DNA of 64,000 nucleotides, taken from Nocardiopsis alba DSM 43377 (GTDB taxonomy: Bacteria > Actinomycetota > Actinomycetes > Streptosporangiales > Streptosporangiaceae). Where the stretch lies: positions 98,970-162,969 of the forward strand of contig NZ_ANAC01000002.1 of NCBI RefSeq assembly GCF_000341225.1, given 5' to 3'. The notes under the pieces were generated by a model. The model searched no databases and was not told where the DNA came from. It saw nothing but the letters and a program-made list of their open reading frames with translations. Made by a program: the position numbers and the translations under genes. Positions 18,436 to 24,279 of this stretch are shown here, one piece after another (within the stretch, counting starts at the first letter, position 1; every line of letters starts with the position of its first letter).

Positions 18436-19722
<1,287 letters not shown>

Positions 19723-19780: not shown

Positions 19781-22700
19781 GTGACCGACCGGAAGTCCGA
19801 TGAGCGGAGTCCCGTGAGGACCCTGGGGGCCTCGAAGGACAGGCCTCGTTTCCTTCAGATCTTCGACGAACTGCGCAGGCGTCCGTCCCGGAGCCGCGAC
19901 CGGGCCCTGCGCAGGATGGCCTCCCGCGCGACCCGTCGTCACGTTCCGGAGCGTGGCGCCCTCCAACGCGGCGACCTCGCCGAGCCCCCTCCCGTGCTCG
20001 ACCTGGTCCTCGACCGGGACTCCGACCGCGCGAGGGTCCAGAGCATGCTCGTGGAGAGCTGTGCGGTCGGTCCGGTCTGGACCCTGCCCCTGGGGGGTCC
20101 GACCGCCGACACCGAGGTCGAGGAGAAGGACGAAGAGGGCGCGGAGAACCCCTCCCGGTCTCGACCCGCGAAGAGAGCCTCCCTCCGGCGGTCGCGTCTG
20201 CTGTCCCGGTGGTCTCGACCCGCGCCGGACGAGGTCGTTCGTCCGGCCCTCGCCCCTCCTCCCGGAGAGAGGGAGGGTCCCGAGGCCGACGTCACCACCG
20301 ACCAGCTCTACGAGCTGATCGGGAGCCTGGTGGACGGCGGCTTCGCCTGGACGCGGAGCGAGGAGGGCCGGAAGGAGCTCGTCCCGCCACGGCGCCGTCG
20401 TTTCCCGCCCTCACCCCGGCTGCCCCGGCTGCACTCCCTCCTGTGGCTGCACCGTTGCGGCCTCGGCTCGAACGAGGACGACGGTGGCCGGGGAGTCCCG
20501 GACCGTCGGTTGGAGAATGACAGCCGCTCACAGATCGAGGTGATCGGCAGGCTGCGCGAGACGCGCCTGGAGGCCGCCGTCGAACAGCGGGACCGGGCCT
20601 TGGAGGAGGCCTCCTCGTCCACCGACGACGGGAGGGGGCGACGTTGGACGCTCCTGTACAAACGCGCCCTGGTGCACTGGCGCAGGGCGGCGTGGAGCGC
20701 CACGGCCGTCTCCCGGTGGGTGACACGGGTGTCCGAGAAGGCGACCTTCGGCCTGCTCGACGAGAAGCTCCTCACCCCACTCTCGTTCCTGGTCTCCCTC
20801 ATCGTGGCCGCCACCCCCTTCGCCTTCCTCGGCCTGGCGGCCCAGCGGCTCAACGAAGTCGCCCAGCGGTTCAACGACCTCGTCTCCCTGGCGTCCGGGT
20901 TCCTCCTGGCCGCCGTGTACCTGCTCACCGTGTTCTTCTTCTTCCTCCCCTGGCGCCCCTACCTGTGGCTCGGCGACTACCGGAGCACGTTGGACGAGGG
21001 GGCGCGCAAGAGCTCGGACGGAACCGGGACGGGTCGTCTCGGCCGTTCCCGGGTCCTGGGCCTTCACCTCTTCAACGAACTTCACCACCCCGACCGTGAT
21101 ACGGGAAGGCTCGGAGCCGGCAGGGGGGAGAAGGGGACGCTTCCTCCCCCCGCCCACCGGATCGCCGTGAGTGCTCTGCTCGACGACCTTCACCGCCTCT
21201 ACGGGGCCTCATCGCTGTGGCGAGGTGGTGCGCGGGACGCGCGTCCGGTGCTGATCTACGACCAGCGTGAGCTCGGCCCGGTCGGTCGTTACCTCGTCCG
21301 CCTGATCGAGGACGAGCGTCTGCGGCGTGCGCTTCCCGACCCTCTACTGCTGGTCCAGATCCGTGACGGTGAGCGCCCCGCGCTGGTCTCGGAGTCGATC
21401 GAGAGTGCCAGGTACGGTCACCTGCCCGAGTACGACGGGTCCGCCAAGACCTCACGAGAGGTCCGCGCGTGGCTTCGCGATCGCCATCTGGCCGGAACGC
21501 TCGGTGTCTCCCGGGTTCTGACGACGAAGGTCGCGCCTCTGGCCCGGGAGGCCCGGGAGCGGAGATGGCACACCCCGCCCGCCTGGGTCCCGACCCGATC
21601 CGCCTGGGCGACCCGTGCGCTCGGAGGATGTGCCGTGGTCGTCGCGCTCGTGCTCTTCTCTCAGGAGGTCGTGAACCCCCTTCAGACGAAGATGGGATTC
21701 TGCGTCGGTGAAGGGGTGACCAAACCACGGGGCATCTTCAGGGTCGACCGTTCATCGGGTGGTCCGGGCGCCAAGGAATGCGTCGGGGTGACCTATGGCG
21801 AAGTCAGGTTCCATGGTCGGCTGGACGGTGTCATCGAACTCATCCGGGAGCAGAACGAGGAGGTCGACAAGAGCGGAGAATCCTACGTCACGATCGCTCA
21901 CATGGCGGACATGAGCGCTTCGACCAAGGAAGGCAAGGAAGGCAAGGAAGACTACGCCCTCGCCGGGGTCCAAGGGGAACTTTTCGGGATGGCCCTGGCG
22001 CAGAGAGAGCACAACGAGGACCCCGGGGACAGGCCCATGATCAAGCTGCTCCTGGGCAACGCGGGTGAGGGTTGGGCACACGCCGAGACCACGGCGGAGG
22101 AGATCGTCAGAAGGGCGAGGAACGAACGGTCGGGTATGGACCGTCCCATCGCGGCGGTCGGTTTCGGGCAGAGCCTGGTCCCCAACGGCACCGCCATACA
22201 GAAGATCTCGGAGGCCTTCATCCCGATCGTGGGGACCACCGCGACCTACGACGACGTGGCCTTGTCCGAGCCCTGGGGGCACAGCGGGTTCTACTTCCCG
22301 ATCGCGCCCTCCAACAGCCGGATCGCCGAGCAGGCCGCCTACTGGGCCCGGCACGGGGCCTCCTGGAAGGACGGCGACTCGGAGGAGGGCCTGCCCGCCC
22401 ACGCGACCGCGGTGGCCATCGCCCACAACCCGCCTCCCCCGGGGGGCGAGAAGGAACACGAGCAGTACGGCCCACACCTGGCCGAGAGGTTCATGGACTT
22501 CTTCGAGGGCTTCGACGGAGAGCCGTGGAGGGGTTCCGAGGGCTTGGGCGAGTCCGAGCAGGCGGGCGTTCTGCTCTACCAGGAGGAGCGTGAGGGGGAC
22601 GGGCCCACACTTCGTGAGGTGGTGAAGAAGGTATGCGCCCCGAAGGAGCCACCGGAACTGCTCTACTACGCGGGGCGTGCTCAGGACTTCAAAGCGTTCT

Positions 22701-23122
22701 ACGAGGAGTTCCGGAAGTCCGCGTGGGAGGCCTGTCATAGAGGGGAGATGACCATCCTGGGGGGCGACGACGTCTCCAAGTTCATTTCCGATGAGGAAGT
22801 GCTGATCGAGGGCAATTCCGAGCGTCATCGGGTGTTCTACACGCCGTTGGCGCCCAGTGATTCCTGGGGCGTCCAGGCTGAGGAGGGCTCCGGGGCCGAT
22901 GATGAGAGCGTCGAGAACGGTGATGAGAACGCCGGGACCGATGACGAGGAGTTCTACGACGAGGTCCGGGGGCTGGTTGCAGAGTCCCAGGGAGTGAAGA
23001 AGGAGCCGGAGGAGGGCGAAGAGGAGACCACCGAAGAGGATCCGAAGGCGAGCGCCAAGGAGGAGGGGGCAACAAGAAGGCGCCCTCTTACGCACACGCC
23101 GTCGTGGGCTACGACGCCCTGA
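19781..23122 (+). CDS. Large membrane protein with C-terminal type 1 periplasmic-binding fold (frameshifted)
   Basis: 1113 residues in this frame. Layout: a basic, low-complexity cytoplasmic N-terminus; two membrane segments near residues 330-355 and 366-390; a second cytoplasmic part (~390-600, PVLIYDQRELGPVGRYLVRL, LLLVQIRDGERPAL); a third membrane segment near 612-630; then a large outside region resembling a receptor-type ligand-binding (ABC substrate-binding, branched-chain amino-acid type) domain, with IKLLLGNAG, IAAVGFGQS, PIVGTTAT and SGFYFPIAPSNS. No Walker A is visible. A GGAGGAGGGGG site precedes the GTG start. The last 17 residues (ATRRRPLTHTPSWATTP) are out of character: the domain continues in the next reading frame after the G-run at 23065-23069. 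Base composition seems lower in GC than the neighbours, and the gene splits serC from pdxH. Function unknown. Confidence 0.6.
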   Translation: MTDRKSDERSPVRTLGASKDRPRFLQIFDELRRRPSRSRDRALRRMASRATRRHVPERGALQRGDLAEPPPVLDLVLDRDSDRARVQSMLVESCAVGPVWTLPLGGPTADTEVEEKDEEGAENPSRSRPAKRASLRRSRLLSRWSRPAPDEVVRPALAPPPGEREGPEADVTTDQLYELIGSLVDGGFAWTRSEEGRKELVPPRRRRFPPSPRLPRLHSLLWLHRCGLGSNEDDGGRGVPDRRLENDSRSQIEVIGRLRETRLEAAVEQRDRALEEASSSTDDGRGRRWTLLYKRALVHWRRAAWSATAVSRWVTRVSEKATFGLLDEKLLTPLSFLVSLIVAATPFAFLGLAAQRLNEVAQRFNDLVSLASGFLLAAVYLLTVFFFFLPWRPYLWLGDYRSTLDEGARKSSDGTGTGRLGRSRVLGLHLFNELHHPDRDTGRLGAGRGEKGTLPPPAHRIAVSALLDDLHRLYGASSLWRGGARDARPVLIYDQRELGPVGRYLVRLIEDERLRRALPDPLLLVQIRDGERPALVSESIESARYGHLPEYDGSAKTSREVRAWLRDRHLAGTLGVSRVLTTKVAPLAREARERRWHTPPAWVPTRSAWATRALGGCAVVVALVLFSQEVVNPLQTKMGFCVGEGVTKPRGIFRVDRSSGGPGAKECVGVTYGEVRFHGRLDGVIELIREQNEEVDKSGESYVTIAHMADMSASTKEGKEGKEDYALAGVQGELFGMALAQREHNEDPGDRPMIKLLLGNAGEGWAHAETTAEEIVRRARNERSGMDRPIAAVGFGQSLVPNGTAIQKISEAFIPIVGTTATYDDVALSEPWGHSGFYFPIAPSNSRIAEQAAYWARHGASWKDGDSEEGLPAHATAVAIAHNPPPPGGEKEHEQYGPHLAERFMDFFEGFDGEPWRGSEGLGESEQAGVLLYQEEREGDGPTLREVVKKVCAPKEPPELLYYAGRAQDFKAFYEEFRKSAWEACHRGEMTILGGDDVSKFISDEEVLIEGNSERHRVFYTPLAPSDSWGVQAEEGSGADDESVENGDENAGTDDEEFYDEVRGLVAESQGVKKEPEEGEEETTEEDPKASAKEEGATRRRPLTHTPSWATTP

Positions 23123-23544
23123 ACGTGGTCAAATGGTCTCTGTCGTCGGTGGGTTCCGAAGGAAACGTGTCATGGGCCCGAAAACTCCTGAGAGGAGTAG
23201 GGATGGATCGCTCCGCCTTCCTGAACTCCGACGAGGGATACGAGAAGGAACGGAACGAACTTTACAGAGAGATCCGGGGCACCGAGTTCACCGGGGTCTC
23301 CGGCTACATCGCGTTCGGTTCGGGCCAAGAGGATGAAGGAGATGAAGGGGGTGAAGAGGGCAACAGGGGGAACTGGCTCGGCGGGCGGATGGTGCAGTTG
23401 GTGCTGGCCGGCGCGGAGAGGTACAACGAGGACACCGAACGTGGGCAGCGCCAGCACGTGATCCAAAGATGCGGTCTGCGCAACGCCGACAAACCCGAAG
23501 AGGGTGAGCAGTGCGTGCCTGTGGAGCTTCAGAGGGGCGACTGA
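23104..23544 (+). CDS. C-terminal part of the receptor-like protein in the -1 frame
   Basis: This frame carries the natural end of the ligand-binding fold. Read back from GTG 23104, the sequence AHAVVGYDALNVV and then TEFTGVSGYIAFGSG (about residues 60-74 here) are the last strands and helices usual in type 1 periplasmic-binding proteins. One extra G in the GGGGG run at 23065-23069, or a -1 slip there, joins it to the upstream gene as a protein of about 1254 residues. An independent start (GTG 23104 or ATG 23203) without a good ribosome site is less likely. So it is either a fragment of a disrupted gene, the result of a sequencing error, or expressed by frameshifting. Confidence 0.6.
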   Translation: MGYDALNVVKWSLSSVGSEGNVSWARKLLRGVGMDRSAFLNSDEGYEKERNELYREIRGTEFTGVSGYIAFGSGQEDEGDEGGEEGNRGNWLGGRMVQLVLAGAERYNEDTERGQRQHVIQRCGLRNADKPEEGEQCVPVELQRGD

Positions 23545-23616: not shown

Positions 23617-24279
23617 ATGCCTTCTGTGGACGACCAGAACCCCGCCGAACTGCGGAAACCGTACATGGGTGAACCCTTGCGCCGATCCGACCTGGCCGAA
23701 CTGCCGATGACCCAGTTCCACCTGTGGTTCGGCGAGGCCTATGAGTCGGGCCTGGCCGAACCCAACGCGATGGTGTTGTCGTCGGTGGAGCCGTCCGGCT
23801 TCCCCCGGTCCCGCACCGTCCTGATGAAGGGCTACGACGGTTCCGGGCTGCGTTTCTTCACCAACTACACCTCGCGCAAAGGGCGGGCACTGGACGCCGA
23901 CCCGCGGGCGTCGGTGGTCTTCCCCTGGCACGCGATCCGCCGTCAGGTGCTGTTCGCGGGCACGGTGGAGCGTCTCGACGACGAGGAGAACGACCGCTAC
24001 TTCGCCTCGCGGCCTCGCGGTTCCCGCCTGGGGGCCTGGGCGAGCGAACGTCAGTCTCAGCCGGTGGACGACCGTGAGGAACTCGATCGGCTCTTCCACG
24101 GCTTCGACACGGTGTGGGGTCTGGACGACCCGATCCCCAGACCCGCCTACTGGGGCGGCTACCGCCTCGTCCCCCACGAGGTGGAGTTCTGGCAGGGCGG
24201 ACAGGACCGTATGCACGACCGTTTCCGTTACCTGCTCCACGAGAACGGTGCCTGGGGCATCGATCGCCTTGCCCCCTAG
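23617..24279 (+). CDS. pdxH: Pyridoxamine 5'-phosphate oxidase
   Basis: 220 residues. The FMN-dependent enzyme oxidises pyridoxine or pyridoxamine 5'-phosphate to PLP. Family blocks: RKPYMGEPLRRSDL at the start, PNAMVLSSVEPSGFPRSRTVLMKG, FFTNYTSRKGRALDADPRAS (FMN site), and the C-terminal WGGYRLVPHEVEFWQGG with RMHDRFRY before the end. Length matches actinobacterial PdxH. No strong ribosome site precedes the ATG. It lies 72 bp after the receptor-like gene; in related genomes I would expect it nearer serC. Confidence 0.93.
   Translation: MPSVDDQNPAELRKPYMGEPLRRSDLAELPMTQFHLWFGEAYESGLAEPNAMVLSSVEPSGFPRSRTVLMKGYDGSGLRFFTNYTSRKGRALDADPRASVVFPWHAIRRQVLFAGTVERLDDEENDRYFASRPRGSRLGAWASERQSQPVDDREELDRLFHGFDTVWGLDDPIPRPAYWGGYRLVPHEVEFWQGGQDRMHDRFRYLLHENGAWGIDRLAP

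Follow-up and report, generated by a model that had tools for sequence, protein, structure and literature searches.

The 64-kb window analysed here, a stretch of 64,000 nucleotides from Nocardiopsis alba DSM 43377, carries a gene for a predicted membrane receptor whose reading frame is interrupted at a run of five G residues. The receptor gene lies between two conserved neighbours, which we take to be serC and pdxH. All coordinates are forward-strand positions in the window, and P0001 denotes the window's own receptor protein. The upper reading frame runs, in order, through an N-terminal part, a membrane hairpin, a further cytosolic part, a third helix, a truncated ectodomain and a 17-residue out-of-frame tail (Table 1). 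The frame, its TGA stop and the G run within the ribosome-site-like sequence all lie as described in an earlier note on this DNA.

Table 1. Features of the receptor locus and its neighbours in the window.
Feature	Position	Strand	Basis or remark
serC-like gene, conserved left neighbour	18436..19713	-	putative start
Upper reading frame, GTG start, 1113 residues, TGA at 23120-23122	19781..23122	+	list of open reading frames, homolog alignment
Predicted membrane hairpin, residues 336-354 and 370-388	20786..20944	+	hydropathy
Third predicted membrane helix, residues 613-631, just past the module boundary	21617..21673	+	hydropathy
Predicted type I periplasmic-binding ectodomain, portion read in frame	21701..23064	+	alignment; model of an intact homolog
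CCCCCGGGGGG run (C5G6)	22436..22446	+	P0003 leaves frame at the corresponding position
Acidic linker right before the junction	22853-23064		32 to 70 residues long across 34 relatives
AAGGAGGAGGGGG, ribosome-site-like sequence	23057..23069	+	
AGGAGG inside AAGGAGGAGGGGG	23058-23063	+	ends 2 nucleotides before the in-frame GGG codon 23066-23068
GGGGG run, point where the frame departs from the homologs	23065..23069	+	
Family's closing segment in the -1 frame, 158 codons plus stop	23068..23544	+	
17 out-of-frame codons (23069-23119) plus stop	23069..23122	+	
pdxH-like gene, conserved right neighbour	23617..24279	+	

Alignment of the joined protein with its homologs, the check proposed in the earlier note, shows that the upper frame leaves the family at the G run and that homology resumes in the -1 frame, which stays open up to the TGA at 23542-23544, contains NKKAPSYAHAVVGYDALNVV and GVSGYIAFG, and continues to the family's usual end. 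The 17 residues that follow the G run have no counterpart in the uninterrupted homologs among 20 aligned proteins. The earlier note had read these 17 residues as unlike the domain and the -1 frame as its closing part, and both readings hold. Its joined length of about 1254 residues is arithmetically correct, and 35 of the 42 homologs found (the window's own included) are 1144-1256 residues long. The nearest named homologs are N. alba proteins, the seven relatives taken from named genomes all come from Nocardiopsis, and a profile search returned 27 proteins, 26 of them already in the set of 42.

Of 36 loci in relatives, 31 have a match to the 158-residue lower segment that goes beyond chance (tblastn E 9e-14 to 2e-39; five loci without a match); these represent 24 genomes, loci L002-L008 duplicating seven of them. 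In 30 of these loci and 23 of the genomes the segment shares its frame with the matched body of the protein, the exception, L033, being a decayed remnant. This arrangement across relatives indicates that one frame change, and not a pair of genes, splits the two pieces. The lower frame is open and offers possible start codons at 23104 and 23203, yet the chance that it is a separate gene starting at either position is negligible: the segment belongs to a long frame in nearly every locus with a match, a conserved gene at those positions was searched for and not found, and none of 20 candidates among predicted proteins of 80-255 residues resembled the lower segment at E <= 0.001. Only one of the 20 aligned proteins ends near 23122, namely P0002, which is itself frameshifted.

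P0002, named N. alba, is 90% identical to P0001, with 103 substitutions, and its out-of-frame tail is the same except for one residue; the ectodomains of the two differ in length by three whole codons. The member counts of their clusters, 6 for P0001 and 14 for P0002, refer to 90% clusters seen through their representatives only. Two further proteins named N. alba, P0004 and P0005, have no interruption. The homolog P0003 (Nocardiopsis sp. LDBS1602) contains a different, earlier lesion at the CCCCCGGGGGG position, and the shifts of P0002 and P0003 are both read solely from protein frames. Many apparent pseudogenes are assembly artefacts according to a published study (PMC11017572); a sequencing or assembly error in the window is nonetheless very unlikely, because the protein of a different strain, separated from P0001 by that many substitutions, leaves frame identically. 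We therefore reject it.

The site between serC and pdxH was compared across 40 Nocardiopsis genomes, in which the gene is a single uninterrupted frame in 21, broken in four and absent from 15. Besides the window gene, the broken copies are those of G007 (L032), which relative to P0033, an uninterrupted protein 96-98% identical to the G007 copy elsewhere, shows a frame change, lacks a stretch and has one piece on the other strand; of G008 (L021), with several frame changes relative to P0021; and of G031 (L033 / L046), a decayed remnant between serC and pdxH. The breakage in G008 is possibly an assembly error, since that assembly is 84% complete. The frame that holds the closing segment in L021 continues stop-free through the pdxH match, which may be an assembly fault. 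Thirteen of the 15 genomes without the gene have serC and pdxH matches 67-284 nucleotides apart; G014 and G039 show wider gaps, and G039 holds a weak trace. In a 200-genome sample of the taxonomic family, 19 genomes match the N-terminal half, spread over 12 of 68 genera with Nocardiopsis included, and serC adjoins the gene in two of the three loci examined outside that genus. Between species, pdxH is 69-89% and serC 64-91% identical (partial matches included), against 42-55% for the receptor gene (long matches), so the receptor gene evolves faster than its surroundings.

Hydropathy and structural modelling predict a membrane receptor whose outer domain is of the type I periplasmic-binding kind, arranged as a two-helix hairpin, a region of alpha/beta elements, a third helix and then the binding domain; the N-terminal parts would lie inside and the binding domain outside. 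The fold was assessed on the intact relative L008 and not on the window's own product. The L008 model (predicted template modelling score, pTM, 0.81) has a two-lobed alpha/beta LivK-type fold by Foldseek and VIA-align. The truncated frame stops at about residue 424 of the 570 in this model, and the product of the window gene accordingly lacks a complete type I periplasmic-binding domain, about a quarter of the ectodomain being missing. The loci, the model, Foldseek and VIA-align thus agree with the earlier note's picture of a split receptor-like membrane protein with this fold.

The window protein has only weak, sub-cut-off matches in Pfam (F-93_WHD, E 0.15; MscS_TM, 0.42), ANF_receptor is matched in one of 20 family members (E 0.081), and the N-terminal 640 residues give nothing significant in Pfam or NCBIfam. 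A PDB sequence search with a whole-family profile found no match. A fold search with a modest model of the N-terminal part (mean predicted local distance difference test score, pLDDT, 67) found none at E <= 0.001, and its weak rows, with E of 0.08 and above and several of AAA type, were not used. The receptor family has no significant counterpart in Pfam or NCBIfam, and it occupies a fixed chromosomal site. A shorter second family, with frames of 535-585 residues, carries a related binding domain but lacks the large N-terminal part; it is located elsewhere in five genomes (L034-L037 and the window's own, G000:C11:134414-134896).

The frameshift is a real and shared change of reading frame, most plausibly an inherited loss-of-function allele that has lost the last quarter of the binding domain. 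Three observations argue for such an allele: uninterrupted orthologs occupy the same site in more than half of the genomes compared, the lesion is present in more than one independent sequence (the protein P0002), and other genomes have a broken gene or none between serC and pdxH. In the intact receptor, closure of the outer domain on its ligand would be relayed by the third helix to the cytosolic part. Without its last helices and final two strands, the truncated ectodomain would either misfold or be unable to close, and the signal would be lost. Among the options offered in the earlier note, a broken gene is thus the best fit; a base missing from the read is unlikely in view of P0002, and frameshifting that makes two products is unsupported.

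Several observations weigh against a simple loss of function. Substitutions and half identities were compared in 36 of 43 proteins, leaving out P0003, P0032, P0034 and P0040-P0043; the substitution comparison added four locus-derived proteins, and some of its pairs are the same gene twice. Conserved-residue counts left out P0001-P0003, P0042, P0043 and proteins without the segment-cutting motifs, with the window's two pieces standing in for P0001 and the P0002 ectodomain put back. Over 418 compared ectodomain residues, P0001 and P0002 differ by 18 substitutions, only one of them at a conserved column (85% or more; background share 0.38; binomial P = 0.002), and other close pairs, intact ones included, are similar, with zero to five such substitutions each. 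Together with the length difference of three whole codons, this shows that the upstream part was not free to drift after the two haplotypes diverged. Likewise, the tail downstream of the shift retains 28 of 32 conserved residues, compared with 29 in P0004 and 30 in P0005, and it is less like the outgroups (11 of the homologs) than the tail of P0005 in only 7 of 11 comparisons. Finally, substitutions between P0001 and P0002 at residues 1067 and 1101 closely bracket the junction, so if the two owe a shared origin to recent recombination, the tract must have been short or changes must have followed.

Other measures bear on the same question. The tail is less like the outgroups than that of P0004 in all 11 comparisons, and the window ectodomain is so in 7 of 11. 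Conservative changes make up 9 of the 18 substitutions between P0001 and P0002, lower than 17 of 21 and 18 of 22 in two other pairs; further pairs give 6 of 9 and 10 of 17. G+C content at third codon positions is 75.9% in the tail versus 83.7% in the ectodomain. Overall, any decay of the tail is slight. The constraint between P0001 and P0002, the conservation of the tail and the closely bracketed junction disfavour a pseudogene that died long ago and was shared by descent.

The constraint upstream and the nearly intact tail imply either that the shift arose recently, arose more than once or was spread by recombination, or that the shortened product works. The latter would mean that the truncated 1113-residue protein still functions, for example in a form that is blind to ligand or altered but retains its cytosolic and membrane parts. 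This is rather unlikely, although the upstream frame is constrained between two frameshifted haplotypes and has gained no further stop or shift, and the truncated form occurs with two different N-terminal backbones (below). The product lacks about a quarter of what is a single compact fold, the locus is broken elsewhere or lost in other genomes, and a tail without clear decay equally fits a recent event. Because the locus has been lost so often, we prefer a shift that may be recent, recurrent or carried by recombination.

Programmed -1 frameshifting or polymerase slippage at the G run, yielding a short and a full-length product, would account for the apparent maintenance of both frames, for the position of the run within a ribosome-site-like sequence and for a shift common to divergent haplotypes. 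The gene is also rich in such motifs, with 13 runs of five or more G and 10 copies of AGGAGG, counts that exceed those in each of ten relatives (2-11 and 3-8, respectively); against this, both motifs are common throughout the gene and its relatives. We regard recoding as improbable. Intact relatives have no need of it: the segment is in frame at this point in all the relative genomes that carry it except the decayed remnant, as well as in P0004 and P0005, and among the homologs seen the frame change is not conserved beyond P0002. The AGGAGG lies 2 nucleotides from the GGG codon, whereas stimulatory ribosome sites in bacteria stand 9-14 nucleotides away for a -1 shift and 3 for a +1 shift, according to a review (PMC5009743). 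Read from its sequence, GAG GGG GCA allows good re-pairing for one tRNA only. In E. coli tests (PMC4066793), single Z_ZZ.N motifs without a stimulator were barely shifty, and signals from G_GG.G were put down to probable initiation. Downstream RNA folds ordinarily, with no unusual stability relative to shuffled sequences (z 1.18, -0.36 and 0.02, folded without pseudoknots). The earlier note's suggestion that the ribosome-like site could promote slippage therefore finds no support in the spacing, the uninterrupted homologs or the RNA folding. Phase variation through a long tract is likewise unsupported, as the switch site has only five G and is one of the 13 runs of that length or longer.

The sequences of P0002 and its relatives point to a receptor whose two halves evolve separately. 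As far as about residue 578, P0002 resembles P0005, and beyond that point it resembles P0001, one breakpoint fitting 238 of 254 informative sites, which places the same frameshifted ectodomain on two different N-terminal backbones. P0002 and P0005 are 97% identical in the cytosolic half and 62% in the ectodomain; the ectodomains of P0001 and P0005, both named N. alba, are also 62% identical. The reverse contrast is found in P0017 and P0022 (cytosolic half 64%, ectodomain 97%) and in P0015 and P0019, both named N. terrae (66% and 97%). Across the 630 pairs of the 36 proteins, the largest contrasts run in both directions, and the halves still correlate (r = 0.71). The ectodomain and the cytosolic half thus appear to evolve as separate modules, and recombination would be the plain reading of these contrasts. 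We tentatively propose a two-module receptor whose ectodomains may be swapped among cytosolic backbones within and between Nocardiopsis species, with ectodomain alleles repeatedly frameshifted off, and which may be under diversifying selection through phage, rival or kin recognition; this possibility, for which the odds are not high, would set it apart from a fixed nutrient sensor.

The predicted ectodomain shares its fold with type I periplasmic-binding proteins of the LivK/LivJ kind and with the ligand domains of class C receptors (mGluR, CaSR). Here, however, the domain is attached to a membrane protein for which three helices are predicted and whose N-terminal 640 residues have no significant match, and in the window it is truncated. 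The domains of myxobacterial TraA differ from those of the Nocardiopsis receptor. By analogy only, the locus may be likened to TraA, which is a one-locus surface receptor highly polymorphic among related isolates (PMC6372800); the Nocardiopsis data do not indicate cell-cell recognition. A second system offered as an analogy only is GlnH-GlnX of Corynebacterium, also an actinobacterium, which the receptor would resemble in its way of working: an outer binding domain signals to the cytosol by way of a membrane protein. There, however, GlnH and GlnX are two separate proteins and GlnX has four helices (PMC9769921). The lesion itself resembles the frameshifted gene and pseudogene clusters of GeneTack (PMC3711429) in that homologs within a genus back a frame change without a recoding signal; it differs in that the same species also carries uninterrupted, strongly divergent alleles. 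Among the matches listed, judged by titles and abstract openings, no literature on this locus was found.

The frameshift represents the ordinary fate of a dispensable gene, and the result takes away one candidate for programmed frameshifting. The locus outweighs the lesion: its outer half is apparently exchanged apart from the inner half, with alleles nearly 40% different in the ectodomain even between proteins assigned to one species. If recognition drives this diversity, the locus would provide an actinobacterial example of a polymorphic surface receptor that is open to testing.

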